From contig JAHHDT010000005.1 of the NCBI GenBank assembly GCA_019739225.1, positions 1,240,001 through 1,304,000 on the forward strand: a DNA stretch of 64,000 bases, read 5' to 3'. Both the position numbers and the translations under genes were made by a program. Positions 1,064-34,919 of this stretch are shown piece after piece. How positions within the stretch are numbered: the stretch's first letter is position 1; every line of letters starts with the position of its first letter. Source of the stretch: Aquamicrobium sp. Lineage in GTDB: Bacteria; Pseudomonadota; Alphaproteobacteria; Rhizobiales; Rhizobiaceae. Below the pieces are notes generated by a model. It was not told the origin of the DNA and made no database searches. It saw only the letters and a program-made list of their open reading frames with translations.

Positions 1064-3544
1064 ATGGCGCTCGACACATATCGCCGCAAGCGCGACTTCG
1101 GAAAGACGCCTGAACCGAAGGGCGCGGATGGCAAGGCCGCGGCCGGAAACAGTTTCGTCGTGCAGAAGCATGACGCGCGGCGTCTGCACTATGATTTTCG
1201 ACTGGAGATGGACGGCGTCCTCAAGAGCTGGGCGGTCACCCGTGGCCCGAGCCTTGTGCCGTCGGAGAAACGGCTTGCCGTCCATGTCGAGGACCATCCG
1301 CTCGACTATGGCGACTTCGAGGGAACGATCCCGAAAGGCGAATATGGCGGCGGCACGGTCATTGTCTGGGATCGCGGGACGTGGATTCCGGAAGGTGACG
1401 CGGAGAAGGGGCTCAAGAAGGGCCATCTCGAATTCACGCTCGAGGGCGAGAAGCTTTCCGGCCGCTGGCATCTTGTGCGGATGGCGAAGCGGCCGCGCGA
1501 GAAGCGCGACAACTGGCTGCTGATAAAGGGCGACGACGACCAGGCCCGCTCGGAAGACGATCCCGACATTCTGGAGGAACGGCCGGAATCCGTCAAAACC
1601 GGCAGGGAGGTCGCGGATGTGGCCGGCGAGGAGCCCGGCTGGTCGTCCCGGACCGGCAAGATCGACAAGGCGCCGCAGAAGGCTGCACCCGCGGTTCGTG
1701 GGACGAAGAAGGCGCGCATGCCGGAATTCGTCGCGCCTCAGCTCGCCACGCTGAAGCCGCACGCACCTGCCGGCAAGGGCTGGATCCACGAGATCAAGTT
1801 CGACGGATACCGTCTCCAGGCCCGCATCGAAAAGGGCAAGGTGACATTGCTGACCCGAAGCGGCCTCGACTGGACCGCGAAATTCGGCAAAGACGTGCCG
1901 AAGGCGCTTGGCGCGTTGCGGGTCGAGCAGGCTATCCTCGATGGCGAACTGGTCGTCGAAGCTTCAGGCGGCGCTTCGGACTTTTCCGCGCTGCAGGCGG
2001 ATCTGAGCGCCGGTCGCGCGGACCGTTTTGTCTACTATGCCTTTGATCTTCTCTATCTGGACGGTCGCGAGCTGCGCGGTGCCGCGCTCGTGGATCGCAA
2101 GGCGGCGCTGGCCAAGCTTATTGAGGGCGCGCCGGATACGCTACGCTACTCCGACCACTTCGAAGAAGACGGCGAGATGGTGCTGCGCCACGCCTGCCGC
2201 CTCAGTCTGGAGGGCGTCGTTTCCAAGCGTGCCTCCGGCAAATACGCCTCCGGCCGCGGGCGCGAGTGGGTCAAGTCGAAATGCAGCGATCGGCAGGAGA
2301 TGGTCGTTGGTGGCTTCATGCCGTCGACAACGTCGAAACAGGCCATCGGTTCGCTCGTGCTCGGCGTCTACGAAGACGGCAAGTTGCGTCACGTGGGGCG
2401 TGTCGGCACCGGGTTCAGCCGCGATGTCGCGCACGATCTCTACACCCGTCTCAGCGCCCTTGAACGCAAGACGTCTCCGTTTGCCGACAAGCTCGACGCG
2501 GTGGCCCGGCGCGGCGTCCGTTTCGTCAAACCGCAATTGGTCGCCGAGGTCGAATTTCGCGACTGGACTGCGGATGGCAGGCTGCGCCATGCTGCGTTTC
2601 GTGGCCTGCGGGAGGACAAGCCTGCCGGCGAAGTGGTGCGCGAGGATGAAGGCGTGGCAACCAGAAAGGCGTCTACCTCAAAGGTGAAGCTTACGCACCC
2701 CGACCGCGTTTACTGGAAGGATGCCGGCATCACGAAAGAGGGGCTTGCGAGCTATTATGCGCAGGTCTGGCGGTTGATGGCCCCGCATGTCGTTTCGCGC
2801 CCGCTGGCGCTTGTGCGCTGCCCGCAAGGCACAGCCCAGCAGTGCTTTTTCCAGAAACACGGTTGGAAGGGGATGAGCGGCGAAATTCTCACACGTCGCG
2901 ATCCGCAGGGAGACGGCGAGGATGACACCTTGATAGCCGTGGATTCTCTGGACGGGCTGATCGGCCTCGTGCAGGGCGCAACGCTGGAAATCCACACCTG
3001 GCAGGCAAGCCTCGACGAACTCGAAAAGCCGGACCAGCTCGTGATCGATCTCGATCCGGGCGATGGCGTCGCCTGGAGCACGGTGATCGACGCGGCGCTT
3101 GAGGTGCGGGAGCGGCTGGAAGCCGCCAAGCTCACAGGTTTCGTCAAGACCACTGGCGGCAAGGGCCTCCATGTCGTCGCGCCCCTGAAACCCGAGATGG
3201 GCTGGGACGGGGTCAAGGACTTCGCACGGCAACTTGCCGATTCCATGGAAGGGGATGCTCCGGACAGCTTCATCGCCAAGGCGACCAAGGCGGAGCGCAA
3301 GGGCAAGATATTTGTCGACTATCTGCGCAACGGCCGTGGCGCGACCGCCATTGCGCCGTACTCGACGCGTGCTCGGCAAGGTGCAACGGTGGCGATGCCT
3401 TTGGGCTGGGACGATCTCGGACCTGAAATAGGCCCCGGCTACTTCACCGTCGACAATGCGATGGCGCGGCTCGACAATCTCGATGCCGATCCATGGGCCG
3501 ATTTCAGAAAGGCCGCTGCTCCGCTCGCCACGAAAAAATCGTAG
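1064..3544 (+). CDS. ligD: Multifunctional ATP-dependent DNA ligase LigD
   Basis: LigD processes and seals broken DNA ends held by Ku. The 826-residue protein has three modules in the order phosphoesterase-ligase-polymerase, the arrangement known from Pseudomonas LigD. The 3'-phosphoesterase module (about 30-165) keeps the metal and catalytic positions His36, His42, Asp44 and His78. The ligase module (about 225-525) has the adenylation motif KFDG with Lys245 as nucleotidyl lysine. The primase-polymerase module (about 541-815) has the DxD metal motif at 662-664 and a TGGKGLHV motif. It directly follows ku and converges on the second ku, ending only 3 bases from it. The protein looks intact. 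Confidence 0.96.
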   Translation: MALDTYRRKRDFGKTPEPKGADGKAAAGNSFVVQKHDARRLHYDFRLEMDGVLKSWAVTRGPSLVPSEKRLAVHVEDHPLDYGDFEGTIPKGEYGGGTVIVWDRGTWIPEGDAEKGLKKGHLEFTLEGEKLSGRWHLVRMAKRPREKRDNWLLIKGDDDQARSEDDPDILEERPESVKTGREVADVAGEEPGWSSRTGKIDKAPQKAAPAVRGTKKARMPEFVAPQLATLKPHAPAGKGWIHEIKFDGYRLQARIEKGKVTLLTRSGLDWTAKFGKDVPKALGALRVEQAILDGELVVEASGGASDFSALQADLSAGRADRFVYYAFDLLYLDGRELRGAALVDRKAALAKLIEGAPDTLRYSDHFEEDGEMVLRHACRLSLEGVVSKRASGKYASGRGREWVKSKCSDRQEMVVGGFMPSTTSKQAIGSLVLGVYEDGKLRHVGRVGTGFSRDVAHDLYTRLSALERKTSPFADKLDAVARRGVRFVKPQLVAEVEFRDWTADGRLRHAAFRGLREDKPAGEVVREDEGVATRKASTSKVKLTHPDRVYWKDAGITKEGLASYYAQVWRLMAPHVVSRPLALVRCPQGTAQQCFFQKHGWKGMSGEILTRRDPQGDGEDDTLIAVDSLDGLIGLVQGATLEIHTWQASLDELEKPDQLVIDLDPGDGVAWSTVIDAALEVRERLEAAKLTGFVKTTGGKGLHVVAPLKPEMGWDGVKDFARQLADSMEGDAPDSFIAKATKAERKGKIFVDYLRNGRGATAIAPYSTRARQGATVAMPLGWDDLGPEIGPGYFTVDNAMARLDNLDADPWADFRKAAAPLATKKS

Positions 3545-3547
3545 CCG

Positions 3548-4369
3548 TCAGCGCGATTTGCCGCCCTTCTTCTCGGCCTCGACGCTCCTGCGCAGCGCGT
3601 CCATGATCGAAACCACGTTGTCGGGCGCCTCGGCTGGCGCTTCCTTCTTTCCACCCTTTCGCGGTGCCGGCGGCCTCTGCTTTTTCTTCTTCGACGAGAT
3701 GATGCGTTTCAGGCGCTTCTGCACCGGGTCCTGCACCATGGAAGGGTCCCATTCGGCGGTGCGTTCGTCGATCAACTTGCCGATCATGCGCAGCGCTTTT
3801 GTATCCGGTTTGCCTTCATCAATGCCGGAGAAATAGTCCTCCGCCTCGCGCACTTCGTCACCGTATCGCAACGTCCAGACGAGGATGCCCTTGCCGCGTG
3901 GCTCCAGCATCAATGCACGCTCGCGCCTGTAAAGCACCACGCGCGAAATTCCCACCATGCCCGTGGCGGCCATCGCATCGCGGATCACCGAGAAGGCTTC
4001 TTCGGCGATCTTGTCGTCGGGGGTGAGATAGTGGGCCTTGTCGAGCCATATCCAGGGAATTTCGTCACGGGCAACGAAGGTGTCGATGTCTATCGTTCGT
4101 GCGCTTTCGAGCGCGACCGCCTCCAGTTCGTCATCCTCGAGCAGGATGAACCTATCCTCGGAAACAGGGTAGCCCTTGACCTCGTCGCTCTCGCGAACCG
4201 GCTTGCCGGTTTCCTCGTCGACATAGCGGCTTTCGACGCGATTACCGGTGGCTCGGTTGATTGTGTGAAAACGCACTTTTTCTCTGGGCGAGGTTGCGGG
4301 AACCATCGCCACCCGGCATGTCACAAGCGAAAGTCGCAGATAACCTTTCCAGAAACTGCGGGGTGCCAT
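3548..4369 (-). CDS. ku: Ku-family DNA end-binding protein (second paralogue)
   Basis: A second Ku of 273 residues, clearly homologous to the one at 221-1060 (MAPRSFWKGYLRLS start; FHTINRATGNRV and [10 protein letters not shown] signatures) but well diverged. The C-terminal tail is again Lys/Arg rich. I chose the ATG at 4369, 8 bases after a GGAG sequence and matching the start of the other Ku; an in-frame GTG at 4381 would add four residues. It lies tail to tail with ligD. Multiple Ku paralogues are common in rhizobia and may form alternative homo- or heterodimers; which partner it uses cannot be read from sequence. Confidence 0.94.
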   Translation of the reverse strand: MAPRSFWKGYLRLSLVTCRVAMVPATSPREKVRFHTINRATGNRVESRYVDEETGKPVRESDEVKGYPVSEDRFILLEDDELEAVALESARTIDIDTFVARDEIPWIWLDKAHYLTPDDKIAEEAFSVIRDAMAATGMVGISRVVLYRRERALMLEPRGKGILVWTLRYGDEVREAEDYFSGIDEGKPDTKALRMIGKLIDERTAEWDPSMVQDPVQKRLKRIISSKKKKQRPPAPRKGGKKEAPAEAPDNVVSIMDALRRSVEAEKKGGKSR

Positions 4370-4474
4370 CGCTGTCTCCACGTCCTAGAACAGCAAACGT
4401 GGGAGGCGGGCCTTCGTTCCGGCGCAGGGCGCGCCAGTGATTGCGCCGCCAACGCTTGTGCAGACCGTGCTGAA

Positions 4475-12055: not shown

Positions 12056-12523
12056 ATGGCGTCGTCAAAGTCCGAAAGGTCCGATCGCCGCCGCTCGCTC
12101 GCGATCGGGCTGTTGCGGGCGCGCGAAGCGGTCATGAGCCATTTCAGGCCGATCCTCGCTGCCCACGACGTCACCGAGCAGCAATGGCGGGTAATCCGCA
12201 CCCTGTCCGAAGCCGGCATGCTCGACGCGACGGAAGTGGCCGAAAAGGCCTTCATCCTCGCCCCAAGCCTTACCCGCATGATCCGCTCACTGGAGGAGCG
12301 GGGGCTCATCACGAAACACAAGGACGAAAGCGACGGCAGGCGCGTGCTTCTCAAGCTCTCGCCTGCCGGTCATGCACTGATCGACGCTGTGATGCCGGAT
12401 TCGCGAAGGGTCTATGCGGAAATCGATGCGCGATTCGGCGCGGTGCGCGTCGAGGAACTGCTCGATCTGCTCGACGAACTGGCTGCCCTTAAGCTGGATG
12501 GCGGGGCAGGCAGCGGCCGCTAG
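12056..12523 (+). CDS. hpaR: MarR-family repressor HpaR of homoprotocatechuate catabolism
   Basis: A 155-residue winged-helix regulator. Its sequence HDVTEQQWRVIRTLSEAGMLDATEVAEKA followed by LAPSLTRMIRSLEERGLI closely fits HpaR/HpcR. In enterobacteria HpaR represses the meta-cleavage operon and is released by homoprotocatechuate or 4-hydroxyphenylacetate. Here the gene converges on hpaH with 21 bases between the ends. A matching operator candidate is the palindrome before hpaF at 18688. Confidence 0.9.
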   Translation: MASSKSERSDRRRSLAIGLLRAREAVMSHFRPILAAHDVTEQQWRVIRTLSEAGMLDATEVAEKAFILAPSLTRMIRSLEERGLITKHKDESDGRRVLLKLSPAGHALIDAVMPDSRRVYAEIDARFGAVRVEELLDLLDELAALKLDGGAGSGR

Positions 12524-12544: not shown

Positions 12545-13348
12545 TCAGGCGAAAAACAGGCTCACGGTACCGTAAGGGCCGAAATCGCCTACGATGGTGT
12601 CGCCGTGGCGCGCCTCGATGGGACGGATGAAGGAACCGGCGAGCACGATCTGCCCGGCCTCGATACCATCGCCATACTCCGCCAGCCGATTTGCAAGCCA
12701 TGCGACGCCCCGGGCCGGCTGGTTGAGGACACCGGCGCCGAGGCCGGTTTCCTCCACCTCCGCGTTGCGGCTGACGATGGCGCCCATCCATCGCATGTCG
12801 ATCTGGTCAGGGCGCACGGCCCGGCCACCCGTGACGATGCCGGCATTGGCGGCGTTGTCGGCGATCGTATCGAAGATGGTCCGCGCCTTCTTCGTCTCGG
12901 GATCGACACGCAGGATGCGCGTGTCCAGGATTTCCAGGGCAGGGGTCACGTAGTCGGTGGCGTTCAGCACGTCGAAGACGGTGACGCCCGGTCCTTTCAG
13001 CGGTTCTTTCATGATGAAGGCGATCTCGGCCTCGACGCGTGGCTGGATGAACCGGTCCGCCGGCACTGTAGCGCCGTTCTCGAAGACCATGTCATCGAAC
13101 AGCACGCCGGAATCGGGAATGTCGATGTTCAGCGCATATTGCATGGCCTTGGAAGTGAGGCCGATCTTCCAGCCGATCACCTTGCGCCCGCGCTCCAGCT
13201 TCTTCTTCACCCACGCACTCTGGATCGCATAGGCGTCGTCCATGGTGATGCCGGGCTGTTTCAGCGATAGCAGGCCGGTCTGCACCCGCGTTCGCTCGGC
13301 CTCGTCGAGACTGGTCGCAGCCGCTTCGATCTCGTCTGGCGTCATCAT
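12545..13348 (-). CDS. hpaH: 2-oxo-hept-4-ene-1,7-dioate hydratase
   Basis: Adds water to 2-oxo-hept-4-ene-1,7-dioate late in the homoprotocatechuate pathway; a metal-dependent enzyme of the FAH/hydratase fold. It has long near-identical blocks with enterobacterial HpaH: WKIGLTSKAMQ, DYVTPALEILD, TIADNAANAGI and GVLNQPARGVAWLAN. I chose ATG 13348, giving 267 residues as in E. coli HpaH. A TTG at 13357 that overlaps the upstream stop is possible but less likely. It is the last gene of the hpa operon. The next pathway enzyme, the aldolase HpaI, is not in the window. Confidence 0.95.
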   Translation of the reverse strand: MMTPDEIEAAATSLDEAERTRVQTGLLSLKQPGITMDDAYAIQSAWVKKKLERGRKVIGWKIGLTSKAMQYALNIDIPDSGVLFDDMVFENGATVPADRFIQPRVEAEIAFIMKEPLKGPGVTVFDVLNATDYVTPALEILDTRILRVDPETKKARTIFDTIADNAANAGIVTGGRAVRPDQIDMRWMGAIVSRNAEVEETGLGAGVLNQPARGVAWLANRLAEYGDGIEAGQIVLAGSFIRPIEARHGDTIVGDFGPYGTVSLFFA

Positions 13349-13353
13349 GTTCG

Positions 13354-14226
13354 TCAAACCTCGTCGGCGATGGTGTTTCGCAAAAGGCCGATGCCTTCGG
13401 CCTCAACCTCGACCACGTCTCCTGGCTTCAGCCAGACGGGCGGATCGAAGCGCGCGCCTGCGCCGGTCGGGGTGCCGCAGACAATGACGTCGCCCGGCAC
13501 CAGCGTCGTGAAGGTCGAGATGTAGCTGATGATCTTGCGAAACGAGAAGATCATCCGGCTGGTGCGATCGCTCTGCCGGACTTCGCCGTTGACCCGGGTT
13601 TCGAGCTTGATGTCGGCAAGCTGGCTTTCCTCCGCATAGGGTACCAGCCACGGGCCGATCGAGCCGCTGGCATCGAAGTTCTTGCCCTGCGTGACGTTGA
13701 ACTTTGCGTGGCGCACCCAGTCGCGGATGGTGCCTTCGTTGCACAGCGACAGCGCGGCGATGTGGCCGAGCGCGTCGGTCTGCGCGATGCGCCGTCCGCC
13801 TTTGCCGATGATGATGACGATCTCGCCTTCATAGTCGAGCTGGGGGCTCTCCGGCGGGCGGATCAGAGGCCGGTCATGACCGGTGAAGGAACGCGGAAAC
13901 CGGACGAAGAGCGAAGGGTTCGGTGGGGCGTCCTGGCCGTCCTTGTATTCTGCGTTGCGGTCCGGGAAATTCACGCCGACGCAGATGATCTTTTCCGGCG
14001 CGGGGATCGGAATTTCATAGGTGATCTCGGCGAGTGCATAGTCTGCGGGAAGAATCGCGGCCTCATCCGCGAGCTTCGCAAGATAACCTGCCTCGATTAC
14101 TTCACGAAGGCTCGGCCAGCGTTCGCCATGGCGCGCGGAAAGATCGACGATGCCGTCGTCTCTCACGAGCCCATATTTGCGAACACCGCGATGGGAGAAG
14201 CCGGCGAGGCGAGGGCGCTCGGTCAC
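13354..14226 (-). CDS. hpaG: Fumarylacetoacetate hydrolase-family protein, HpaG-like decarboxylase/isomerase
   Basis: A 290-residue FAH-fold protein. The C-terminal catalytic domain (about 75-285) has ICVGVNFPDR, DYEGEIVIIIGKGGRRI with the metal-binding Glu residues, and PGDVIVCGTPTGAG. In E. coli HpaG is a two-domain fusion that decarboxylates 5-oxopent-3-ene-1,2,5-tricarboxylate and isomerises the product; here there is one domain only. It starts with GTG at 14226 after AAGGAG and overlaps the preceding decarboxylase-family gene by four bases. Its place before hpaH supports the OPET decarboxylase role; whether it also isomerises is unknown. Related FAH enzymes of gentisate or hydroxymuconate pathways cannot be excluded on sequence alone. 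Confidence 0.8.
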   Translation of the reverse strand: MTERPRLAGFSHRGVRKYGLVRDDGIVDLSARHGERWPSLREVIEAGYLAKLADEAAILPADYALAEITYEIPIPAPEKIICVGVNFPDRNAEYKDGQDAPPNPSLFVRFPRSFTGHDRPLIRPPESPQLDYEGEIVIIIGKGGRRIAQTDALGHIAALSLCNEGTIRDWVRHAKFNVTQGKNFDASGSIGPWLVPYAEESQLADIKLETRVNGEVRQSDRTSRMIFSFRKIISYISTFTTLVPGDVIVCGTPTGAGARFDPPVWLKPGDVVEVEAEGIGLLRNTIADEV

Positions 14227-15644
14227 GTCGGGCTCCTTGGGGAAAGATTGCGGGCAACCTCGACGATCACCTTGAAGGCGTCATCGGCATCGTCGCGCGT
14301 CATCTCGAACTGGCCGGCCTGGAAACGGATCGCGATGCGGCCGTCGACGCGCGTCTGCGTCAGGTAGATGCGGCCGTCATCGTTGATGGCGTTGACGAGC
14401 GCGAGATTGTGGCCGTCGGCATCATCGCCCGCCTCGTGGCGGAACGAGAACAGCGAAAGCACCGGCTGGGTGACGATCTCGAAATCCGGCTCGGCAGCAA
14501 GCCGTGCGGCCAGTGCCTGCGACCATTTCACATGGTTGCGGATCATGCCGCGCAGGCCCTCGAGCCCGTGATAGCGCAGCAGGAACCAGAGCTTGAGCGC
14601 GCGGAACCGGCGGCCGAGAGGGATCGACCATTCCGAATAGTTGATGATGCCGTCATGGCCGTGCGTCTTGAGGAATTCCGGGTGGATGGCGAGCGTGCGC
14701 ACCTGATCCTCGGGGCTGCGGATGAACTGTACCGAGCAGTCGAAATTCGCGCCAAGCCATTTGTGCGGGTTGAAGACGATTGAATCCGCCCCCTCGATGC
14801 CATCCCACAGGGCGCGAAATTCCGGGCAGATCATTGCTGATCCCGCCCAGGCCGCATCGACATGGAGATAGAGCCCATGTGCCTTGACGACTGCTGCGAC
14901 AGCGCGAATCGGGTCGCAGGCGCCGATCGAGGTACCGCCGGTACAGGCGATCACGCCTGCCGGGATATGGCCGGCGGCAAGGTCTGCCCGAATGGCGGCG
15001 TCCAGCGCGTCCGGGTCCATCCCGTGGAGCGGTCCCCTGGTCGGAATGCGCACGAGGTTCGCCTCGCCGACGCCGGCAATCCAGATGGCGCGGTCGATGG
15101 AGGTGTGAACCTGCTCGGAGGCGTAGACGCGCACCGCCTTGTGCGCCGCAAGGCCCTCGCTGTTGCCTTTCCACCCGAGCGCCTTTTCGCGCATCACCAG
15201 CACTGCGGTGAGCGTGGCGGTGGATGCGGAATCCTGTATGACGCCGGAGAAATCGTCCGGCAGCCCAAGCGCCTGACGCAGCCAGTCGACGACGCGGGTC
15301 TCAAGCTCGGTCGCTGCCGGCGAGGTCTGCCACAGCATGCACTGCGCTGCGATCGACGTGACGAGATAATCGGCAATCACCGACACCGGCGCCGCGTTGG
15401 CCGGGAAATAGGCGAAGAAACGCGGATGCTGCCAATGGGTCAGCCCGTCCGGGATGATGCGCTCGAAGTCGGCGAAAATCGCCTCCATGGTGTCGCCGGT
15501 TTCCGGGGCGGCGTCGGCGATCTGACGGGCGATGTCGCCCGGCTTCGTCTGCGCGCGCACCGGCCGCTCGCGCAGACCCGCGCGATAGTCCGCACCCCAG
15601 TCGGCAACCCGTCGCGACCAGTCGCGGAATTCTTCGCTGTCCAT
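14223..15644 (-). CDS. Aromatic L-amino-acid decarboxylase family; probable arylacetaldehyde synthase
   Basis: A 473-residue group II PLP enzyme related to DOPA decarboxylases. The PLP lysine is Lys295 in FNPHKW, the pyridine-nitrogen aspartate is Asp263 (LHVDAAWAGSA) and the ring-stacking histidine is His180 (EQVHTS). In animal and plant decarboxylases a Tyr lies 29 residues after the PLP lysine (Tyr332 in mammalian AADC). Here that position is Phe324 (HPEFLK; codon TTC read from 14675-14673), with no gap in between. Tyr-to-Phe at this site is known to turn decarboxylation into O2-dependent decarboxylation-deamination, giving the aldehyde. The gene sits inside the hpa operon and overlaps hpaG by four bases, so an arylacetaldehyde made from DOPA or tyrosine would fit. 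Simple DOPA decarboxylase remains possible. Confidence 0.85.
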   Translation of the reverse strand: MDSEEFRDWSRRVADWGADYRAGLRERPVRAQTKPGDIARQIADAAPETGDTMEAIFADFERIIPDGLTHWQHPRFFAYFPANAAPVSVIADYLVTSIAAQCMLWQTSPAATELETRVVDWLRQALGLPDDFSGVIQDSASTATLTAVLVMREKALGWKGNSEGLAAHKAVRVYASEQVHTSIDRAIWIAGVGEANLVRIPTRGPLHGMDPDALDAAIRADLAAGHIPAGVIACTGGTSIGACDPIRAVAAVVKAHGLYLHVDAAWAGSAMICPEFRALWDGIEGADSIVFNPHKWLGANFDCSVQFIRSPEDQVRTLAIHPEFLKTHGHDGIINYSEWSIPLGRRFRALKLWFLLRYHGLEGLRGMIRNHVKWSQALAARLAAEPDFEIVTQPVLSLFSFRHEAGDDADGHNLALVNAINDDGRIYLTQTRVDGRIAIRFQAGQFEMTRDDADDAFKVIVEVARNLSPRSPT

Positions 15645-15705: not shown

Positions 15706-16686
15706 TCAGGGCGCGATGATCGGCTGTGCCTTCAGTTGCGCATCCACCACATCCGTGCCGGCGAAAAGGCTGCCATGCTCGAACCAGGATTTCGGCGCCG
15801 GCGCGCCCCACAAGGTCTGCCGCTGCGGGTCCTTGAGGTCCCATTTGATCGGCTCGAGATCCGGGTCCACCGTTTGGTAGTCCGAGCAGTAAATCTCGAT
15901 GCGGTGGCCATCGGGGTCGAGGATGTAGAGGAAAAATGCGTTGGAGATGCCATGCCGACCGGGGCCGCGCTCGATGTTGGAAACCCAGCCGGTCGTCGCC
16001 ATCAGGTCGAGCAGGTCGATGATGTTAAGCGGTGTCGGCACCCAGAAGGCGGTGTGGTGCAGGCGCGGGCCGCGGCCGTTGGTGAAGGCGATGTCGTGCA
16101 CGCCGCCCTTGCGGTGCGTCCAGGCTGCCCACAGCCGGCCGGTCTCCTCGTCCTCGGTGTACTCCGTCACCCGGAAGCCGATCTCGTTGTAGAAGGCGAC
16201 GCTTTCGTCGACGTTGGGCGAAAAGCAGTTGAAGTGATCGATGCGCAGCGGCTTCACGCCTCGATAGAGCGCGTATTTCTGGTGAATCGGTGGTAGCCGA
16301 TCCATCTTCGCATAGAATTCCAGCGGCACACCATGCGGGTCGCGCGTGCGGAATGTGCGGCCCTGATAGGGGCGCTCGACCCATTCCACCGGCAGGTCCT
16401 TTTCCCTGAAGAACTGTTCGGCCCTGTCGAGGTGGTCCTCGTCGAACACCTTGAAGCCGAGGTCGCGGGCTTCCGCCTTGCCGGATTTCTTCAGCACGAT
16501 GCAGTGGTGGCCGCGCTCCTCCATGGCACGCAGATAGATCGTGTCCGCCGTCTCGTCCGTGACCTGCAGGCCGAGCGTGTCGACATAGAAGGCGCGGGAC
16601 CTGGCAAGGTCGGTGACGCCGAATTCGACATGGCTGAGTCGCACGATGTTGAACGGCGGGTAGAGGTTCGGCTGGGGTACGGGCAT
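15706..16686 (-). CDS. hpaD: Homoprotocatechuate 2,3-dioxygenase, type I extradiol (VOC fold)
   Basis: Opens the ring of 3,4-dihydroxyphenylacetate next to the diol, giving 5-carboxymethyl-2-hydroxymuconate semialdehyde. The 326-residue protein has two VOC domains. The catalytic one carries the metal triad His151 (LRIDHFN), His211 (LHHTAFW) and Glu264 (RIEIY), with His197 as the likely acid-base residue. GPGRHGISNAFFLYILDPDG is almost the same as in the Brevibacterium/Arthrobacter enzyme, so this is the Gram-positive-like VOC type and not the E. coli LigB-fold HpaD. The ATG at 16686 follows GGAGGAGG. Sixty bases separate it from hpaE. Confidence 0.95.
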   Translation of the reverse strand: MPVPQPNLYPPFNIVRLSHVEFGVTDLARSRAFYVDTLGLQVTDETADTIYLRAMEERGHHCIVLKKSGKAEARDLGFKVFDEDHLDRAEQFFREKDLPVEWVERPYQGRTFRTRDPHGVPLEFYAKMDRLPPIHQKYALYRGVKPLRIDHFNCFSPNVDESVAFYNEIGFRVTEYTEDEETGRLWAAWTHRKGGVHDIAFTNGRGPRLHHTAFWVPTPLNIIDLLDLMATTGWVSNIERGPGRHGISNAFFLYILDPDGHRIEIYCSDYQTVDPDLEPIKWDLKDPQRQTLWGAPAPKSWFEHGSLFAGTDVVDAQLKAQPIIAP

Positions 16687-16746: not shown

Positions 16747-18264
16747 TCAGCCGCCGAGTTTCGGGATGGCGTGGGCGCCGGTGGCGAAGGCGACGTTCTT
16801 CGTCTCCATGTAGAAGTCGAACGACCAGTCGCCGCCGTCGCGGCCGATGCCGGAATTCTTCACGCCGCCGAAGGGCGTCGGCAGGTGTCGCACATTCTCC
16901 GAGTTCACCCAGATCATGCCCGCGTCGAGACGATCGGTGAAGCGGAAAGCGCGCGTGACATCGCAAGTCCAGAGATAGCCGGTGAGGCCGTATTGCACGT
17001 CGTTGGCAAGCTCCAGCGCTTCGGCCTCGTCTGCAAAGGGGATAGCGGCCAGGACCGGCCCGAAGATTTCCTCCTGCGCGATGCGCATTGTGTTGTTCGC
17101 ACCGGTAAACAGGGTCGGCGAGACGTAGCATCCGCCGCCGGGGCCATCGAATTTGCCGCCCCCGGCAGCGACCGTGGCGCCCTCCTTCCGGCCAATCTCG
17201 ATATAGTCCAGCACCTTCTTCTCATGCACCGGATGAACTAGCGGCCCGACGACGGTTTCCGGATCGAGCGGATGGCCGACCTTGATGCGCTTCGCCTTCT
17301 CCGCCACCAGTGCGGTAAAACGATCATGGATGCTTTCCTCGACCAGCAGGCGTGAGGAGGAGGTGCAGCGCTCGCCGTTGAGCGAGTAGATCATGAAGAC
17401 GGCGGCATCCGCGGCGCGCTCCAGATCGGCATCGGCGAAGACGATGACCGGGTTTTTGCCGCCGAGCTCGAAATGCACGCGCTTCAGCGTGTCGGCCCCC
17501 TGTTTCATGATCATCGAGCCGGTGCGGCTCTCGCCGACGAAGCCTATGGCCTTGATCAGCGGATGTTCGGTCAGTGCCTTGCCGGCGTCTTCGCCGAACC
17601 CGTTGACGAGGTTCCACACACCTTTGGGCAGGCCGGCCTCTTCCGCGATCTCGACCAGAAGGCGCGCGGTCAGCGGCGAAAGCTCGGCCGGCTTGTGCAC
17701 GACGGTGCAGCCTGCCGCGAGCGCCGGCGCGATCTTCCACGTGGACAGCATGAAGGGTGTGTTCCACGGCGTGATGATGCCGACGGGGCCGATCGGCACG
17801 CGCGTCGTCATGTTGACCTGGCCTTCCGTGCGCAGCGTCTTGCCGTCACGGGCTTCCGGCGCACGGTCGGCGAAGAAGCGGAAGTTCTCAGCCCCGCGCA
17901 GCGCGGCCTTGGCCATGAAGCGCAGCGATTGCCCGGTATCCATGCATTCGACGAAGGCGATCTCCTCCGTGCGCGCAACGATTGCATCCGCTATTCTGTG
18001 CAGCAGCTTCTTGCGCGTCTCGCCTGGCATCGCCGCCCATTCGGCAAAGGCAGCCCTGGCGGCCTTCGCGGCGCGGTCGATGTCAGCCGCCGTGCCCCTT
18101 GCAACGGTGGCAAGCGGCTTCAGATCGACGGGGGAGATGGTCTCGAATGTCACTCCATCGGCGGCTGGCAGATCTTCGCCAGCGATGCGATTCATAACGC
18201 CCTGTTCCCTGAAGCGGGCAAGATAGGCATCTGCCTTCGCGATGTTTTCCTCGAGCTTCGACAT
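16747..18264 (-). CDS. hpaE: 5-carboxymethyl-2-hydroxymuconate semialdehyde dehydrogenase
   Basis: An NAD-dependent aldehyde dehydrogenase of 505 residues that oxidises the ring-cleavage semialdehyde. It has the catalytic Cys in NGERCTSSSRLL, the general-base Glu in FELGGKNP and the fold signature PWNTPFMLSTWKIAPALAAG. I chose ATG 18264, which has an AGGA site; a GTG at 18279 overlapping the hpaF stop would add five residues. It is the only aldehyde dehydrogenase in the hpa operon, so it could also oxidise an arylacetaldehyde produced by the neighbouring PLP enzyme, though this is inference. Confidence 0.94.
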   Translation of the reverse strand: MSKLEENIAKADAYLARFREQGVMNRIAGEDLPAADGVTFETISPVDLKPLATVARGTAADIDRAAKAARAAFAEWAAMPGETRKKLLHRIADAIVARTEEIAFVECMDTGQSLRFMAKAALRGAENFRFFADRAPEARDGKTLRTEGQVNMTTRVPIGPVGIITPWNTPFMLSTWKIAPALAAGCTVVHKPAELSPLTARLLVEIAEEAGLPKGVWNLVNGFGEDAGKALTEHPLIKAIGFVGESRTGSMIMKQGADTLKRVHFELGGKNPVIVFADADLERAADAAVFMIYSLNGERCTSSSRLLVEESIHDRFTALVAEKAKRIKVGHPLDPETVVGPLVHPVHEKKVLDYIEIGRKEGATVAAGGGKFDGPGGGCYVSPTLFTGANNTMRIAQEEIFGPVLAAIPFADEAEALELANDVQYGLTGYLWTCDVTRAFRFTDRLDAGMIWVNSENVRHLPTPFGGVKNSGIGRDGGDWSFDFYMETKNVAFATGAHAIPKLGG

Positions 18265-18275
18265 GCGGTTTCCTG

Positions 18276-18662
18276 TCACTTGCCGCGCAGGCGCGGATGA
18301 ATGGCGTTCTTCTTCCAGCTCAGTTCGGCGTCGATCTCGCGGATTTCGAGCGATAGTGCGAAATGCGGCGTCTTGAGGAGCGGAGCCAGCAGACTGCTCG
18401 CGGTAGCGAAAATAGCCTCTCCGGCGCGCTTCTTCTCGTCAGCGCTGCGACCTTTGCCGATCCGGAAACTGAGGTCGACGAAAGCGTTTTCCGGCAGGCG
18501 GTCGGCGATCGCGTAATGATCGGCGCGCAGCGCCCGGACGCGCACGGCACCAACCTCGAACAGGCCGGTCTCCAGCACGGTCTCCAGCAGCGCCGCGCAG
18601 AGCGCGTCGAGATCGACACGCCCGTCCAGATTGGCCGAATATTCGATGGTCAGATGCGGCAT
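18276..18662 (-). CDS. hpaF: 5-carboxymethyl-2-hydroxymuconate delta-isomerase
   Basis: A 128-residue tautomerase-superfamily enzyme that shifts the double bond of 5-carboxymethyl-2-hydroxymuconate. Pro2 follows the initiator Met (MPHLTIEYS), so the mature protein would start with the catalytic proline. The segments FVDLSFRIGKGRS and LSLEIREID match CHMI enzymes. It is the first gene of the operon, with a GAGGAACG ribosome site, a promoter and a palindromic operator upstream. Confidence 0.93.
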   Translation of the reverse strand: MPHLTIEYSANLDGRVDLDALCAALLETVLETGLFEVGAVRVRALRADHYAIADRLPENAFVDLSFRIGKGRSADEKKRAGEAIFATASSLLAPLLKTPHFALSLEIREIDAELSWKKNAIHPRLRGK

Positions 18663-18809: not shown

Positions 18810-19595
18810 CTAAGCCCTATTCTCCCGACCGACGACCGAGCTGTGCCAGGGGGTAAGCCAGGCGCGGAGCTGGGAGATCAGCGTGTAGAGCGTAAGGCCG
18901 ATGAGCGTAAGCAGTACGATCACGGCGAAAAGGCCGGGTACCTGGAGTTCCTGCAGCATGGCGACGGCGAGATAGCCGAGCCCCTCATTGCCGCCGATGA
19001 ATTCGCCGACGATCGCGCCGATCATCGACATCACCACCGCGACCTCGACGCCTGCCAGAACGACAGGCAGCGCCGTCGGCAGGTCGAGCATGGTGAAGCG
19101 CTGGATCGGGTTCGCCTGCAGCATGGTGAACACGTCCCGGTCGCCCGGCTCCACCGAACGGAAGGCTACCAGGGCGTTTGAGAAGACCGGGAAGAAGGCG
19201 AGCGCGGCGGCGATTACGATCTTCGATTCCAGCCCGAAGCCGAACCACAGGATGAACAGCGGCGCCAGCGCGATCTTGGGGATGAGCTGGAGGCAGACGA
19301 TGAACGGCTTGAAGGCCCATTCCAGCATCTGGACGCGCGCCATGGCCATGCCCAGCGTGACGCCCAGAAACACGGCAATGAGGAAGCCGGAAACGGCCTC
19401 GATTACGGTGACGAGCGCGTGGCGCCACACGGATGCGTCGCTCACGAGGTCGACAAAGGCCATGATGATCTGCCACGGCGTCGGCAGGATGAACGCCGAC
19501 ACTTCGGCCGTGCGCACATAGAGCGTCCAGATCAGCAGAAAGGCGATGACGGTGCCGGTCGGCAGTGCGACGCGGATGAGACGATCTGTGCGCAT
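18810..19595 (-). CDS. ABC transporter permease, SsuC/TauC/NMT1 type (importer 1)
   Basis: An inner-membrane subunit of 261 residues with about six spans and the BPD_transp_1 EAA-type loop (FRSVEPGDRDVFTMLQANPIQRFTMLDLPTALP). It starts at ATG 19595, which overlaps the ATPase stop (ATGA), so the two are translationally coupled. It is the last gene of a three-gene importer unit (binding protein, ATPase, permease). The family carries thiamine precursors, sulfonates or aromatic compounds; the ligand here is probably the substrate of the neighbouring oxygenase cluster. Confidence 0.9.
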   Translation of the reverse strand: MRTDRLIRVALPTGTVIAFLLIWTLYVRTAEVSAFILPTPWQIIMAFVDLVSDASVWRHALVTVIEAVSGFLIAVFLGVTLGMAMARVQMLEWAFKPFIVCLQLIPKIALAPLFILWFGFGLESKIVIAAALAFFPVFSNALVAFRSVEPGDRDVFTMLQANPIQRFTMLDLPTALPVVLAGVEVAVVMSMIGAIVGEFIGGNEGLGYLAVAMLQELQVPGLFAVIVLLTLIGLTLYTLISQLRAWLTPWHSSVVGRENRA

Positions 19596-20389
19596 CAATG
19601 GCCTCCCGTCAGTGTGGAGCGCAATCGAACGAGCATGTCCTGGAAGGCAGTCGTGCGCTGCAGGTCGAGCGTGCGCGGACGTTCGAACGGCATCTCGATG
19701 ACCTCGGTGATGCGCGCAGGCCGTGCGGCAAGCACCACCACGCGATCCGAAAGGAACGCGGCCTCGGTGATCGAGTGCGTGACGAGGATGGTCGTCACCC
19801 GCGCTTCGGCGCACACAGACATCAGCTCCATGTTGAGCGTGTCGCGCGTCATCGCGTCGAGCGCGCCGAACGGCTCGTCGAGAAGCAGCACCTGCGGCTT
19901 GGTGATAAGTGCGCGGGCAAGCGATGCACGCTGGCGCATGCCACCGGACAGGGCCGACGGGCGCATCGTTTCGAAGCCCTTGAGGCCGACGGTCTCGCAC
20001 AGCGCATGCGCGCGCGCTTCCCGTTCGGCCTTCGCCACGCCCTGCAGGCGCAGCGGCAGTGCCACATTCTCTGCGACCGTGAACCACGGGAAGAGCCGCG
20101 CTTCCTGGAACATCATCGAAACCGGTCTGGTCGCCTCGCTCGACCGCTTCCCCTCCTCCCAGACGGCGCGGCCACGCACCAGGATTTCGCCCTCGGTCGG
20201 CCTCTCGAGACCGGCAATGATGCGCAAAAGCGTGGTCTTGCCGCAACCCGACGGGCCCAGAAGCGAGATGAAATCGCCGCGCTGCATGTCCAGCGTGGCA
20301 TCGCCGATGGCGCGGACGGCGTTCGCGCCACTGCCGAAGGTCTTGCCGACACCCGCGAGACGGATGTCGGCCTCCGTCTCCATCTTCAT
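19595..20389 (-). CDS. ABC transporter ATP-binding protein (importer 1)
   Basis: A 264-residue nucleotide-binding subunit with Walker A GPSGCGKTT, signature SALSGGMRQRA, Walker B VLLLDEPFGALD and the switch His in VTHS. MMFQEARLFPW is the Q-loop of the SsuB/TauB subgroup. The start at 20389 overlaps the binding-protein stop by four bases, and its own stop overlaps the permease start by three bases. Confidence 0.93.
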   Translation of the reverse strand: MKMETEADIRLAGVGKTFGSGANAVRAIGDATLDMQRGDFISLLGPSGCGKTTLLRIIAGLERPTEGEILVRGRAVWEEGKRSSEATRPVSMMFQEARLFPWFTVAENVALPLRLQGVAKAEREARAHALCETVGLKGFETMRPSALSGGMRQRASLARALITKPQVLLLDEPFGALDAMTRDTLNMELMSVCAEARVTTILVTHSITEAAFLSDRVVVLAARPARITEVIEMPFERPRTLDLQRTTAFQDMLVRLRSTLTGGH

Positions 20390-21390
20390 GCCTTGAGAGC
20401 CTGATCGAGCAGGTCGTTGGTGTAGAGTTCGGTCGCCGGAACCGTCTTGTCGATCAGCTTTGCGCCGGCAAGCAGTTCCACGGCACGGTCCCACATTTCG
20501 GGGATGTTGCGCAGCAGGTTTTCCTCGCCTTTCGAGGCCCAGTTCTCGGCGTTGGCGCGCAGGTCCTTCTGGGCGATTTCCGTATTCTTGAGCCCGGAGA
20601 CCTCATGCTTTTCGCCGATCTTGGTCAGGATCGGTGTCAGGTCCTCCGCACCGACGATTTCCTTTGCCGCGCGGTGGGTCGCGCGCAGGAAGGCGACGAA
20701 CTTTTCGGGGTTCTCCGCGACCTGGTCAGGGCGCGCGACATAGACCTGACCCGGCATGCCGTCATCGATCGGCATGGCCGCTACATCGTCGCGTGCCGAG
20801 CTGGCTATCACCATGGAGGACGTGTTGCCAAGGAACGCGCCGGCGCGGCCGGCCTCGATCAGCGCGAAGGAGGCGGCTGAATCGGCCACCTTCACCTTGT
20901 TGACCTTTTCCGGCGACGCGCCTGCGTTCGTCATCATCAGGTCGAGCGTGCCTTCCATCGAGCCGCCGAGCGTCGCCATGCCCACGGTGCGGCCTTCCAG
21001 GTCGGCGATCGTGTTCACCGGGTTGTCGGTGGAGGACAGCACGAAGAAGGGCGACATCTGCGCGATCGTCGCGATCGAGATCAGCGGCGCGTCGTTGTTG
21101 ACGCGGGAGACGATGTAGTTGGTACCGCCGGTGCGGCCGGAATCCATCTGCCCGGCAATGGTCATCTGTGCTGCCAGCGCCGCGCCCTTGCCGGCCTGCA
21201 GGTTCATCTCCAGCCCCTCGTCGCTGTAGTAGCCGGCGGCGTCGGCATACAGCACCGGCGCAAAGGCCAGGGAGAAGGTGAAGGGGGTAATGAAACTGAA
21301 CGCGTTCTGCGCCCGCGCTCCGACCGGAAGCGACAGCAAGGCAGCGCTCCCCATTGCACCCAGCATCAGGCTTCGCCGCGTCAATTCCAT
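20386..21390 (-). CDS. ABC transporter substrate-binding protein, NMT1/THI5-like, Tat-exported (importer 1)
   Basis: A 334-residue periplasmic receptor. The N-terminus has a twin-arginine signal (LTRRSLMLG, then a hydrophobic stretch and ARAQ cleavage site), which implies export in folded form. The body has the NMT1-like pattern FAPVLYADAAGYYSDEGLEMNLQAGKG and DLEGRTVGMATLGG. I chose ATG 21390 because GGAGCG precedes it and the frame upstream has no signal. It is 14 bases downstream of the three-part GTTCA operator. A second importer with the same operator lies at 26238-28846. Confidence 0.9.
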   Translation of the reverse strand: MELTRRSLMLGAMGSAALLSLPVGARAQNAFSFITPFTFSLAFAPVLYADAAGYYSDEGLEMNLQAGKGAALAAQMTIAGQMDSGRTGGTNYIVSRVNNDAPLISIATIAQMSPFFVLSSTDNPVNTIADLEGRTVGMATLGGSMEGTLDLMMTNAGASPEKVNKVKVADSAASFALIEAGRAGAFLGNTSSMVIASSARDDVAAMPIDDGMPGQVYVARPDQVAENPEKFVAFLRATHRAAKEIVGAEDLTPILTKIGEKHEVSGLKNTEIAQKDLRANAENWASKGEENLLRNIPEMWDRAVELLAGAKLIDKTVPATELYTNDLLDQALKA

Positions 21391-21561: not shown

Positions 21562-22386
21562 TCACTCGGTTGCGGTACTTTCGGGGAGGCCGCCAAGCAA
21601 CCGGGTGATGGCGGCGGCTGTACGGAGCACTTCCGTTTTGACCCCGGCTTCGATGTCGTCGACGACACTGCCGGAAGCCGCCCGGGTGACGTTTATCGCA
21701 GCGACGATGTTGCCGCTGATGTCGCGGACAGGTGCTGCCACGCTGGCGATCCCCGTTTCGAAACTGCCGATCTGCACCACCGCGTCCGCCTTCCGGTCGC
21801 GCCGCCATTGCGCGACCAGCTCGGTCAGGCTGCGGGGAGTCTGGCCGGGCGCGTTCTGATAGGTCTCGTCGCGATAGAGCCGCAGCAGGCCGTCCTCGTT
21901 CAGGTCGGTGAGAAGGACGCGGCCCATGGTGGTGCCCGCGGCTGGAAGCCGGCTGCCGACATGGACGATGCTGGCGAGGCCAAGGTGGCTGGGCACCCGC
22001 AACATGTAGAGCACGAAGCGCCCGTCGCGCACGCCCAGATGCGCCGACCAGTCGGTCGCATCACGCAGCTTCTCGAGCTCCGGCAGTGCGATCTCCACCA
22101 GTTCGCGCGTTGCGAGGTAGCCATAGCCGAGCCGCAGCACCGCCGGGCCGAGCGTGTAGCGGGCGGTTTGTTGGTCGTGCAGCAGGTAGCCGTGGTGGGC
22201 GAGCGTGTAGACGGCGCGAAAGGCAGCCGAGCGGGTGGTGCCCAGGCAGCGGGCGATATCCGAAAGCGTCATCTCGCGCGTCTCGGGCGTGAAAGCCTGC
22301 AGCACTTCAAGGCCGCGGATCAGGCCGGGCACGAGATATTTGTCGTCGGACTGTGTGCGAGGGGTGTCGACTTGTGTTTTATCCAT
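21562..22386 (-). CDS. IclR-family transcriptional regulator
   Basis: A 274-residue regulator with an N-terminal winged helix (about 18-80; LIRGLEVLQAFTPETREMTLSDIARCLGTTRSAAFRAVYTL) and a C-terminal IclR ligand domain (about 95-265) with the family segment PAAGTTMGRVLLTDL. It lies between importer 1 and the bicupin gene. It is the nearest regulator to the three GTTCA operators and so the best candidate to bind them. A different palindrome overlaps its own start codon and may serve autoregulation. Confidence 0.9.
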   Translation of the reverse strand: MDKTQVDTPRTQSDDKYLVPGLIRGLEVLQAFTPETREMTLSDIARCLGTTRSAAFRAVYTLAHHGYLLHDQQTARYTLGPAVLRLGYGYLATRELVEIALPELEKLRDATDWSAHLGVRDGRFVLYMLRVPSHLGLASIVHVGSRLPAAGTTMGRVLLTDLNEDGLLRLYRDETYQNAPGQTPRSLTELVAQWRRDRKADAVVQIGSFETGIASVAAPVRDISGNIVAAINVTRAASGSVVDDIEAGVKTEVLRTAAAITRLLGGLPESTATE

Positions 22387-32447: not shown

Positions 32448-33235
32448 TGGATTATGGTTATGCCGGCAAGGTGGCAGTCGTCACCGGTGGTTCGTCGGGC
32501 ATCGGGCTCGCGACCGTGCAGACGCTGCTGGAGTCGGGGGCAAAAGTTGCGCTGTGCGCCCGCACCGAAAGCCGTCTCAACGACGTGGCATCGGTTCTGA
32601 TCCGGGACTTCGGCAAGGAGAATGTGCTTGCCAGCGCGTTCTCCGTGCTCGACCCCGAAGCCGTCAACGGTTTCGCCGCGCAGGTGAAGGAGCGTTTCGG
32701 TCGCTGCGACCTGCTCGTCAACAATGCAGGGCAAGGGCGGCAGTCGACCTTCGCCACCACCTCCGACGACGACTGGCGCGCCGAATACGAGCTGAAGCTG
32801 TTCAGCCAGATCCATCCCGTGCGGGCCTTCCTGCCAATGCTGCGCGAGGCGAAGGGGTCGATCGTTGTCGTCAATTCGCTGCTTGCCTACCAGCCCGAGC
32901 CGCACATGGTCTGCACTTCCTCGGCCCGCGCCGGGGTGCAGAATCTGGTCAAGTCGCTGTCGATCGAACTGGCGCCCGATATTCGCGTCAACTCGATCCT
33001 GATCGGCATGGTCGGTTCCGGCCAGTGGCTGCGCCGCTTTGCCGAGCGTGAGGACCAGAGCCAGAGCAAGGCCGAATGGTACGGCGCGCTGGCCAAGAAC
33101 AAGGGCATTCCGCTCGGCCGCCTCGGCGACCCGTCGGAAGCCGCTTCGGCCATCGCATTCCTGGGATCGCCGGGAGCAAGCTACATCACAGGCGCTCACC
33201 TCGAGGTTTCGGGCGGCCTGGCGCGTCATATCTGA
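32447..33235 (+). CDS. SDR-family protein with altered catalytic residues
   Basis: A 262-residue SDR with an intact cofactor loop (TGGSSGIG), NNAGQG and the catalytic Ser position (NSLLAY). However, where Tyr-x3-Lys is expected the sequence reads CTSSARAGVQ, so Tyr is replaced by Thr and Lys by Arg. The protein may bind NAD(P) but use another mechanism, or serve a non-redox role. The ATG at 32447 overlaps the dioxygenase stop by one base. The first SDR of the operon (29944) keeps all residues. Confidence 0.88.
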   Translation: MDYGYAGKVAVVTGGSSGIGLATVQTLLESGAKVALCARTESRLNDVASVLIRDFGKENVLASAFSVLDPEAVNGFAAQVKERFGRCDLLVNNAGQGRQSTFATTSDDDWRAEYELKLFSQIHPVRAFLPMLREAKGSIVVVNSLLAYQPEPHMVCTSSARAGVQNLVKSLSIELAPDIRVNSILIGMVGSGQWLRRFAEREDQSQSKAEWYGALAKNKGIPLGRLGDPSEAASAIAFLGSPGASYITGAHLEVSGGLARHI

Positions 33236-33245
33236 AGGATACGAG

Positions 33246-34919
33246 ATGAAACTCGAAACCATTGCAGCTTCGGAGACGGTCGGCGACTTCATCGCCCGCT
33301 ATCTCGCCGAGATCGGCGTCACCACAGTTTTCGGGGTGATCTCGATCCACAACATGCCGATCCTCGACGCCATAGCCCGCCAGGACCGCATCCGTTTCGT
33401 GCCGTCGCGCGGCGAGGCGGGCGCGATGAACATGGCAGATGCCTATGCGCGCGTTTCCGGTGAGCTAGGCGTCTGCCTGACGTCCACCGGCACGGCTGCC
33501 GGCAACGCCGCCGGCGCGCAGGCCGAGGCACTGACCGCCGGTTCACCAGTGCTGCACATCACCACGCAGGTCGATCTCGAATTCGCCGACCGCGACCGCG
33601 CGGCGATCCACGACGTGCCGCGCCAGCCCGAAATGCTACGCGGTGTCTCCAAGGCGGTGTTCCGCATGTGGGATGCCAACGGTGCCATCGGCGCACTGAC
33701 CGCCGCCGTCTCGGCAGCCCTTTCCGCGCCGACGGGGCCGGTAAGCCTGGAGATCCCGGTCGACGTGCAGCGCAAGCCGGCCCGTTCGACAGAACGCATC
33801 CACCGCCCGCAGCCCACTCGCCCGGTAGCACCCGACACCGTCATCGACGAGATCGCGGAGATGGTGAAGGCGTCCAGGCGTCCCTTGCTGTGGCTTGGCG
33901 GCGGCGCGGTCGGCGCGTCGCGCGAGGCGACCGATTTGATGCGGCGCGGCTTCGGCGTGGTCACGTCGACCAACGGCCGCGCGACGGTCTCGGAGGCTGA
34001 GCCCGCGACACTCGGCGCCTTCAATATGACGCCGGAGGCCGTCGAGCTCTACAAGAGCTGCGACCTGATGATCGTCGTCGGCTCGCGCCTGCGTGGCAAC
34101 GAGACCCGCAACAACAAGATGCCGCTGCCGCGACCGCTGGTGCAGATCGATGCCGATGCGGCTCAGGGCGGGCGCAACTATCCCGTCGAGGTGTTCGCGC
34201 ACGGCGATGCCGCCGACACGCTTTCGCGCCTGCTCGAGCGACTGCCCGATACGCTGGATACGGACACGAATCTGTCCTTCGACATCGCCCGCACGCGGGC
34301 TCAGGCCGAAGGCAGGATGCGCGATGTCCTTGGGCCATATCGTGTCGTCGCCGATACGTTGGCTGACCGCATCTTCGCCGGCGGCCACCCATGGGTGCGC
34401 GACGTGACCATCTCGAACTCGACCTTCGGCAATCGCTATGTCCGCATCGCAGGACCCAATCTCGGCGTTCATGCACTGGGCGGCGGCATCGGGCAGGGCG
34501 TGGCCATGGGTGTCGGCGCCGCACTTGGATCGAAGGGGGCCAAGGCGGTCACGCTGCTGGGCGACGGCGGCACGATGCTGGGGCTCGCCGAGATGATCAC
34601 CGCCGTCGAGGAGAACGCCCCGCTGGTTTACCTGCTGATGAACGATAAGGCCTACGGCGTGATCCAGAATATCCAGGATGCGCAATATGGCAGCCGCCGG
34701 CACTATTCGGCGCTGGCGACCCCCGACTTCGCAGCCTTTTGCGGCTCGATCGGCATGCCGCACACGCTGGTGCGCGACGTTGCGGATTTCCCCGCGCTTC
34801 TCGACGAGGCGCTGGCAGCGGAGGGGCCGCGCCTGATCGAGATCGACATGTGCACGATCGGGCCGTTCAACGAAGCCTTTGCCGGCCCTCCCGCCGGCGC
34901 GGCCGGAAACGGTGGGTGA
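33246..34919 (+). CDS. Thiamine diphosphate-dependent enzyme (benzoylformate decarboxylase/acetolactate synthase fold)
   Basis: A 557-residue three-domain ThDP enzyme. The cofactor-activating Glu57 is in SRGEAGAMNMADAYAR, and the metal/diphosphate motif GDGGTML...MNDKAYG begins near residue 439. The length and the lack of acetolactate-synthase FAD signatures suggest a 2-oxoacid decarboxylase or lyase. It lies between the degenerate SDR and the aspartate-dehydrogenase-like gene. A 2-oxoacid formed from ring cleavage, or oxaloacetate, is a possible substrate. The aldehyde formed could go to the aldehyde dehydrogenase at 35763. Confidence 0.87.
   Translation: MKLETIAASETVGDFIARYLAEIGVTTVFGVISIHNMPILDAIARQDRIRFVPSRGEAGAMNMADAYARVSGELGVCLTSTGTAAGNAAGAQAEALTAGSPVLHITTQVDLEFADRDRAAIHDVPRQPEMLRGVSKAVFRMWDANGAIGALTAAVSAALSAPTGPVSLEIPVDVQRKPARSTERIHRPQPTRPVAPDTVIDEIAEMVKASRRPLLWLGGGAVGASREATDLMRRGFGVVTSTNGRATVSEAEPATLGAFNMTPEAVELYKSCDLMIVVGSRLRGNETRNNKMPLPRPLVQIDADAAQGGRNYPVEVFAHGDAADTLSRLLERLPDTLDTDTNLSFDIARTRAQAEGRMRDVLGPYRVVADTLADRIFAGGHPWVRDVTISNSTFGNRYVRIAGPNLGVHALGGGIGQGVAMGVGAALGSKGAKAVTLLGDGGTMLGLAEMITAVEENAPLVYLLMNDKAYGVIQNIQDAQYGSRRHYSALATPDFAAFCGSIGMPHTLVRDVADFPALLDEALAAEGPRLIEIDMCTIGPFNEAFAGPPAGAAGNGG

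Follow-up and report, generated by a model that had tools for sequence, protein, structure and literature searches.

Repeated Tyr/Phe change at the reaction-switch position of alphaproteobacterial AADCs, and a predicted arylacetaldehyde synthase gene within an hpa operon

Among the alphaproteobacterial members of the AADC family, the residue that is known to set the type of reaction has changed repeatedly between two states. In an alignment of 142 homologues, position 324 is occupied by Tyr in 110 rows, by Phe in 32, and by no other residue; on a tree built without this column it requires 16 changes, 15 of them forced (a quick method, with long-branch warnings). In view of these 15-16 changes, position 324 looks like a two-state switch between reaction types. 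We propose, at a confidence somewhat short of even, that alphaproteobacterial AADCs form a natural switchboard: a single-codon change between Tyr and Phe, made at least 15 times and perhaps in both directions, would turn an amine-forming decarboxylase into an aldehyde synthase and, among near relatives, would go in step with whether the downstream ring-cleavage pathway is kept or not.

The gene that led us to this position, ddc (14223..15644, minus strand), lies in the window, by which we mean the whole 64-kb stretch of DNA analysed here. Its open reading frame starts with ATG and encodes 473 amino acids; from the reading frame, the alignment and a structure model, the product is an AADC-family PLP enzyme predicted to be an arylacetaldehyde synthase. 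The PLP Schiff-base lysine, Lys295 (codon AAA, 14760..14762, minus strand), lies in the motif NPHKW and is invariant in all 142 rows, while Phe324 (codon TTC, 14673..14675, minus strand), placed at the reaction-switch position by its aligned column, lies in HPEFLK. Both residues, the TTC codon and a spacing of exactly 29 residues had been reported in the initial annotation, and all are confirmed from the sequence. In the alignment, His180 falls on a pig DDC (1js3) histidine that we take to be the stacking His192. Lys295, Asp263 and His180 are invariant among the homologues, and ddc has both the fold and the PLP-binding residues of an AADC, with Phe324 in place of the catalytic-loop Tyr that is expected of that family. 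A loop Phe together with a retained stacking His is the mark of the plant-type aldehyde synthases. The insect type (DHPAAS) is marked by Asn at the His position and by Phe79-Tyr80, where ddc has His180 and Tyr79-Phe80. The earlier reading of a plant-type rather than an insect-type switch thus holds, since His180, Tyr79 and Phe80 are retained and the loop Tyr alone is altered.

Several further observations place the protein. Pfam Pyridoxal_deC is found in homologue L031, which is 74% identical to ddc. The structure model, built from 28 sequences, has a mean pLDDT of 89, which falls to 57-65 in residues 321-350, as expected of a mobile loop. Its nearest PDB folds by Foldseek are 7xin, followed by 6eem and 6eei, that is, AADCs and plant aldehyde synthases; by sequence, the best solved relatives are 7xin (399 bits, Tyr at the switch) and 6eei (349 bits, NPEFLK with Phe). 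Phe324 is also present in the nearest relative, L003, at 97% identity and with dN/dS of about 0.07 to the window gene, and a paralogue in the strain's own genome (L002, about 30% identical to ddc) carries Tyr at the switch position.

The minus-strand gene order is HpaF-like, HpaE, HpaD, ddc, HpaG-like, HpaH, with hpaR convergent. Four genes exceed their NCBIfam cut-offs and together mark the cluster as an hpa operon: the MarR-family operon regulator HpaR (12056..12523, plus strand; 168 bits, cut-off 121), the 2-oxo-hept-4-ene-1,7-dioate hydratase HpaH (12545..13357, minus; 440 bits, cut-off 352), the 3,4-dihydroxyphenylacetate 2,3-dioxygenase HpaD (15706..16686, minus; 416 bits, cut-off 321) and the 5-carboxymethyl-2-hydroxymuconate semialdehyde dehydrogenase HpaE (16747..18279, minus; 782 bits, cut-off 638). 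Two others score below theirs, a FAH-family HpaG-like decarboxylase/isomerase (13354..14226, minus; 160 bits, HpaG cut-off 276) and an HpaF-like 5-carboxymethyl-2-hydroxymuconate isomerase (18276..18662, minus; 84 bits, cut-off 215). Overlaps of 4 bases occur at three joints, and a gap of 61 bases separates hpaD from ddc; the annotated position of ddc, between hpaD and an hpaG-like gene that it overlaps by 4 bases, is borne out. Upstream of the operon lie an ABC importer (18810..21390, minus), whose position suggests a possible role in substrate uptake, and a PcaR/PobR-like regulator of the IclR family (21562..22386, minus; below cut-off). The importer comprises a permease (18810-19520) and an NMT1-like binding protein (20386-21390), both assigned by Pfam, and an ATPase (19595-20389) named by eye from its sequence, all on the minus strand. 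Elsewhere in the window, a LigD-type DNA ligase D and a Ku gene on the opposite strand (1064-4381) form a bacterial end-joining pair, and a thiamine-diphosphate enzyme, an aspartate-dehydrogenase-like protein and an aldehyde dehydrogenase stand in a row at 33039-37256, possibly as a small catabolic cluster.

The survey of position 324 was assembled in stages. A scan of genome contigs gave 591 relatives, the best 80 of which, 71-97% identical, were kept; together with the window gene they comprise 60 Tyr and 21 Phe out of 81. An order-wide search of 297 genomes, 43 of them with a match at 1e-100, provided new loci for 29 (27 Tyr and 2 Phe), and searches of the class and the phylum (289 and 299 genomes, with matches in 27 and 22, respectively) provided 37 more. 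Removal of two duplicates and three broken-gene loci left the 142-row alphaproteobacterial set. Eight plasmid loci, chosen from 45 plasmid hits with the residue unseen and kept outside the tree, all have Tyr. In genome G882 (L144/L148) and in genome G403 (L145) the ddc frame is split into two overlapping pieces; G882 also contains a 38% identical paralogue that bears Phe (L147).

The changes recur in each of the trees that we examined. A careful tree of 81 rows, with column 324 kept, gives 9 changes (8-10 in bootstraps, 8 forced by starred branches), and a tree of 110 rows without that column gives 10, of which 8 are forced. The window gene and L003 fall within a starred clade of nine rows, seven Tyr and two Phe, and Phe most simply arose from a Tyr ancestor on the branch leading to these two. 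Since they are nested among Tyr homologues, in a tree of bacterial rows only, their Phe may point to convergence with the plant enzymes. In Mesorhizobium, Tyr rows stand among Phe rows, and parsimony leaves gain versus reversal undecided there.

It is important to ask how unusual such a column is. Two-state columns number 47 out of 467 in the 142-row set, and the runner-up to the 16 changes of position 324 has 8; among the 91 columns with 12-20 changes, 324 is the sole two-state one. In the 110-row set, which has 75 two-state columns, it ties with Ser/Ala269 at 10 changes each (column 269 lies six residues past the invariant Asp263). Positions 79, 80, 180, 292, 294, 295 and 344 are invariant across the 142 rows. 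We also simulated 400,000 columns under LG+G, of which 19,399 were at least 75% Tyr plus Phe; among the 12,000 of these that were examined, 2,198 had 12-20 changes, and none of the 2,198 was exclusively Tyr/Phe.

Because LG+G has no site-specific profile, however, the simulation leaves room for a purely structural constraint, namely that the loop requires only an aromatic ring and can dispense with the hydroxyl, in which case Tyr and Phe would be neutral variants and the window enzyme an ordinary amine-forming decarboxylase. A ring-only requirement predicts strict Tyr/Phe alternation equally well, the Tyr and Phe versions in Mesorhizobium occupy identical gene surroundings, and columns 307 and 336 also swap Tyr and Phe, more rarely and not exclusively. 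We nevertheless consider neutrality, the strongest competitor of our own reading, unlikely. According to the available text of PMC11308512, aldehyde synthases result when this Tyr is replaced with Phe in plant AADCs, mammalian DDC or human HDC, and the reverse change reverts plant aldehyde synthases to decarboxylases; in all three, loss of the hydroxyl switches the reaction. In addition, the link between Phe and the absence of HpaD and HpaB, described below, would be unexpected if the residue were neutral, although it is confined to near relatives and may be confounded.

Phe genes are under purifying selection like Tyr genes: in hand-picked pairs, dN/dS is 0.05-0.12 in eight Phe-Phe pairs and 0.05-0.15 in five Tyr-Tyr pairs. 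Low dN/dS, together with Phe clades that span several species, leads us to reject a pseudogene or a sequencing error as the origin of Phe. Among the columns listed as co-varying with 324, some are associated by the Fisher test (lowest P about 4e-5, for Gln310); as partners of Phe they were rejected, with at most about 3 or 4 of 8 independent pairs in agreement.

Given the position of ddc, the initial annotation had read Phe as belonging to the hpa setting, that is, to a dedicated route from an aromatic amino acid to homoprotocatechuate. We counted a homologue as hpa-linked if HpaD, or HpaG plus HpaH, occurs within the fetched locus. By this definition 29 homologues are hpa-linked, the window included, and 25 of them carry Tyr and 4 Phe, with the proviso that linkage may be missed in loci fetched by genome search, whose flanks extend for only about 1.5 kb. 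The Phe cases come from three lineages (the window with L003, L051, and L102). The Tyr cases are L005, L006, L010, L022, L027, L030, L038, L041, L042, L047, L052, L060, L091, L092, L093, L140, L146 and the plasmid loci L152-L159, of which L152 and L153 are apparent near-copies; the nearest Tyr relatives of ddc, at 88-90% identity, include hpa-linked L005, L006 and L152-L154. The annotation had itself named a Tyr majority among hpa-linked homologues as grounds for giving up its reading, and for the class as a whole that majority is what we find. Thus Phe is rejected as a mark of hpa linkage, and a dedicated route is left to this strain and a few others at most.

The neighbouring genes bear on the same question. 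At the Tyr loci L005, L010, L030, L038 and L042 we find HpaB plus HpaC, in some cases with an aminotransferase or a kinase; at L006, L027, L047, L052 and L060, two class-III aminotransferases, an APH-family kinase and a HAD hydrolase; at L022, one such aminotransferase and a HAD gene; and at L041, none of these. The contig scan thus gave twelve Tyr hpa loci, and in ten of them either the transaminase/kinase block or HpaBC adjoins. The Phe hpa loci of the window, L003 and L051 (a 12-kb piece) have neither; L102 is a 3-kb piece, too short for its neighbours to be judged. Tyr thus tends to be found together with amine-handling genes, in a small sample with exceptions at L041 and at the Roseobacter locus L158 (Tyr), which has only an HpcH-like aldolase in place of the block. 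This pattern fits an amine intermediate for the Tyr enzymes and none for the Phe enzymes. Along with the overlap of ddc with the hpaG-like gene, its adjacency to hpaD and the recurrence of Phe in three hpa-linked lineages, it speaks for an hpa-specific role of Phe; set against the 25 hpa-linked Tyr genes, such a role is doubtful.

The block itself consists of a HAD hydrolase, a PRK07481 aminotransferase, a PRK06148/06149-like class-III aminotransferase (below cut-offs) and an APH-family kinase. It stands beside Tyr-type ddc/hpa genes in L006, L027, L047, L052 and L060 (first 4.4 kb), in L154-L157, and in L004, L008 and L009, the last of these being from a Shinella strain. Our guess from the gene content is that it may encode a kinase plus phospholyase route from a beta-hydroxy arylethylamine, such as octopamine or noradrenaline, to an arylacetaldehyde.

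We then compared residue 324 with the gene content of whole genomes, searching 142 genome entries (50, 59 and 33; L049 was left out and some genomes occur twice) for HpaD. In the 80 nearest rows, here called the near set, HpaD is found in 4 of 21 Phe genomes versus 41 of 59 Tyr genomes (40 over cut-off). The association is negative (phi -0.43 to -0.45), and a value this low turns up in only 0.03-0.1% of Mk simulations along the tree, so that P is about 0.001 after tree correction; two even rules for sub-threshold HpaD matches (L065, L093, L105, L120) lead to the same outcome. An independent-pairs test agrees in direction, with about 0.1 same and 3.4 opposite, though on too few pairs (P 0.25). 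Outside the near set there is no association (HpaD in 4-5 of 11 Phe versus 12-14 of 50 Tyr), and over all 141 rows it is weak (one-sided 0.05, two-sided 0.10). HpaB_N, searched in 50 genomes, occurs in 5 of 21 with Phe and 19 of 29 with Tyr (P 0.003 by simulation); neither copper amine oxidase (2 of 21 versus 7 of 29) nor PaaA (3 of 21 versus 8 of 29) is associated with the residue. Among near relatives, then, Phe tends to occur where the pathway is absent, a pattern to which the window strain is one exception. The premise that Phe belongs with hpa is reversed in this set, where 17 of 21 Phe genes reside in genomes without HpaD, a further argument against an hpa-specific role.

The same association could instead suggest that the Phe enzymes are not catabolic at all, that they supply arylacetaldehyde for auxin-like acids or alcohols or release nitrogen, and that the hpa operon around the window gene is no more than an inherited setting. 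The Phe genes L029, L031, L035 and L043 (Ensifer/Rhizobium) are in keeping with this: no more than about 65 bases separate the end of the match from the start of an aldehyde dehydrogenase, in Ensifer an NADP-dependent succinate-semialdehyde dehydrogenase by NCBIfam, and HpaD is absent from both locus and genome. However, a like aldehyde dehydrogenase, a candidate oxidiser of arylacetaldehyde, adjoins the Tyr-type ddc in hpa loci L152, L153, L155 and L092, and we therefore reject Phe as a partner of that neighbour. The 17 genomes with Phe and no HpaD also have no PaaA, and the Paa route is not supported as a common fate of the aldehyde. Overall we judge a non-catabolic role improbable.

For the window strain we return to the aldehyde-synthase reading. 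On the basis of its residues and of the known enzymes with the same substitution, we lean towards the view that the enzyme makes arylacetaldehyde, NH3, CO2 and H2O2. In such a reaction, a decarboxylation-dependent oxidative deamination, the external aldimine would release CO2 to give a quinonoid; with the loop hydroxyl absent, the quinonoid would stay unprotonated and its electrons would go to O2, yielding arylacetaldehyde, NH3 and H2O2. In the strain's genome (G000), HpaD and PaaA are matched once each, whereas copper amine oxidase and HpaB_N, which marks the 4-HPA hydroxylase HpaB, have no match. Without HpaB there is no known path by which a 4-hydroxy product could reach HpaD, and L-DOPA is therefore a likelier substrate than tyrosine; the annotation's alternative product, 4-hydroxyphenylacetaldehyde, is correspondingly weakened. 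The likeliest substrate would be L-DOPA, whose aldehyde, once oxidised to homoprotocatechuate by a putative aldehyde dehydrogenase, would probably be fed towards HpaD. In the window's operon we found no aldehyde dehydrogenase besides HpaE, which counts against this reading, given that the Tyr-type loci L092, L152, L153 and L155 have one next to ddc. Also against it stand the Tyr majority among hpa-linked homologues, the near-set link of Phe to lack of HpaD, and the tie of position 324 with column 269 in the 110-row set. A one-enzyme aldehyde step fits the presence of HpaD, the lack of a copper amine oxidase match and the lack of a transaminase/kinase block in the 64-kb window; on the other hand, 12 matches to a class-III aminotransferase query in G000 would be compatible with an amine route.

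If the Phe enzymes do make aldehydes, then a single base change has repeatedly switched the reaction type among close relatives; natural pairs such as L024 (Phe) and L027 (Tyr), both from Ensifer, would show a single hydroxyl choosing between protonation and O2; and there would be a bacterial source of arylacetaldehydes, as well as a shorter way into the catabolism of homoprotocatechuate. These would be, to our knowledge, the first natural bacterial aldehyde synthases of the plant type. In the available parts of the literature, natural aldehyde synthases of the AADC family are described from plants and insects, and the titles and abstract openings among the matches listed name no natural bacterial one. 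The available text of a 2020 review (PMC7497351) lists further AADCs from plants, mushrooms and insects and considers a role for such oxidase activity hard to envisage in bacteria or fungi.

Among known systems, the closest solved structure to ddc is also bacterial, the Pseudomonas DOPA decarboxylase 7xin (TM 0.93), presumably the P. putida enzyme, with Tyr at the switch position where ddc has Phe. CcbF, a PLP enzyme of lincosamide biosynthesis, stands outside the AADC family. CcbF is likened to ddc by the description of its reaction, in which a bacterial enzyme forms an aldehyde with CO2, NH3 and H2O2 (available text of PMC7497351 and PMC11794154); its substrate, a cysteine S-conjugate, is unlike the one predicted for ddc. 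P. putida PP_2552 is described, in the accessible portions of two papers, as highly specific for DOPA (PMC6411801) and as having been engineered into an aldehyde synthase by three insect residues (PMC8927377). The insect 3,4-dihydroxyphenylacetaldehyde synthase (6jrl) catalyses the reaction proposed for ddc, and has Asn192 with Phe79-Tyr80 (PMC6494836, available text), unlike the His and Tyr79-Phe80 of ddc. Mutants of mammalian DDC and human HDC (HDC Y334F, 7eiw) bear the same substitution of the loop Tyr as ddc, being laboratory mutants and not natural enzymes. The plant enzymes Rhodiola 4HPAAS (6eeq) and AtPAAS (6eei, Arabidopsis phenylacetaldehyde synthase in the Foldseek table) share the fold of ddc, at 33% and 36-37% identity, respectively, in the Foldseek alignments; AtPAAS has a natural Phe, in a loop that reads NPEFLK versus HPEFLK in ddc, and the loop Tyr is the sole difference from a decarboxylase. 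Unlike these plant synthases, ddc is bacterial, lies inside a ring-cleavage operon and has a predicted reaction; its best reading is that of a plant-type aldehyde synthase that would have arisen independently in bacteria.
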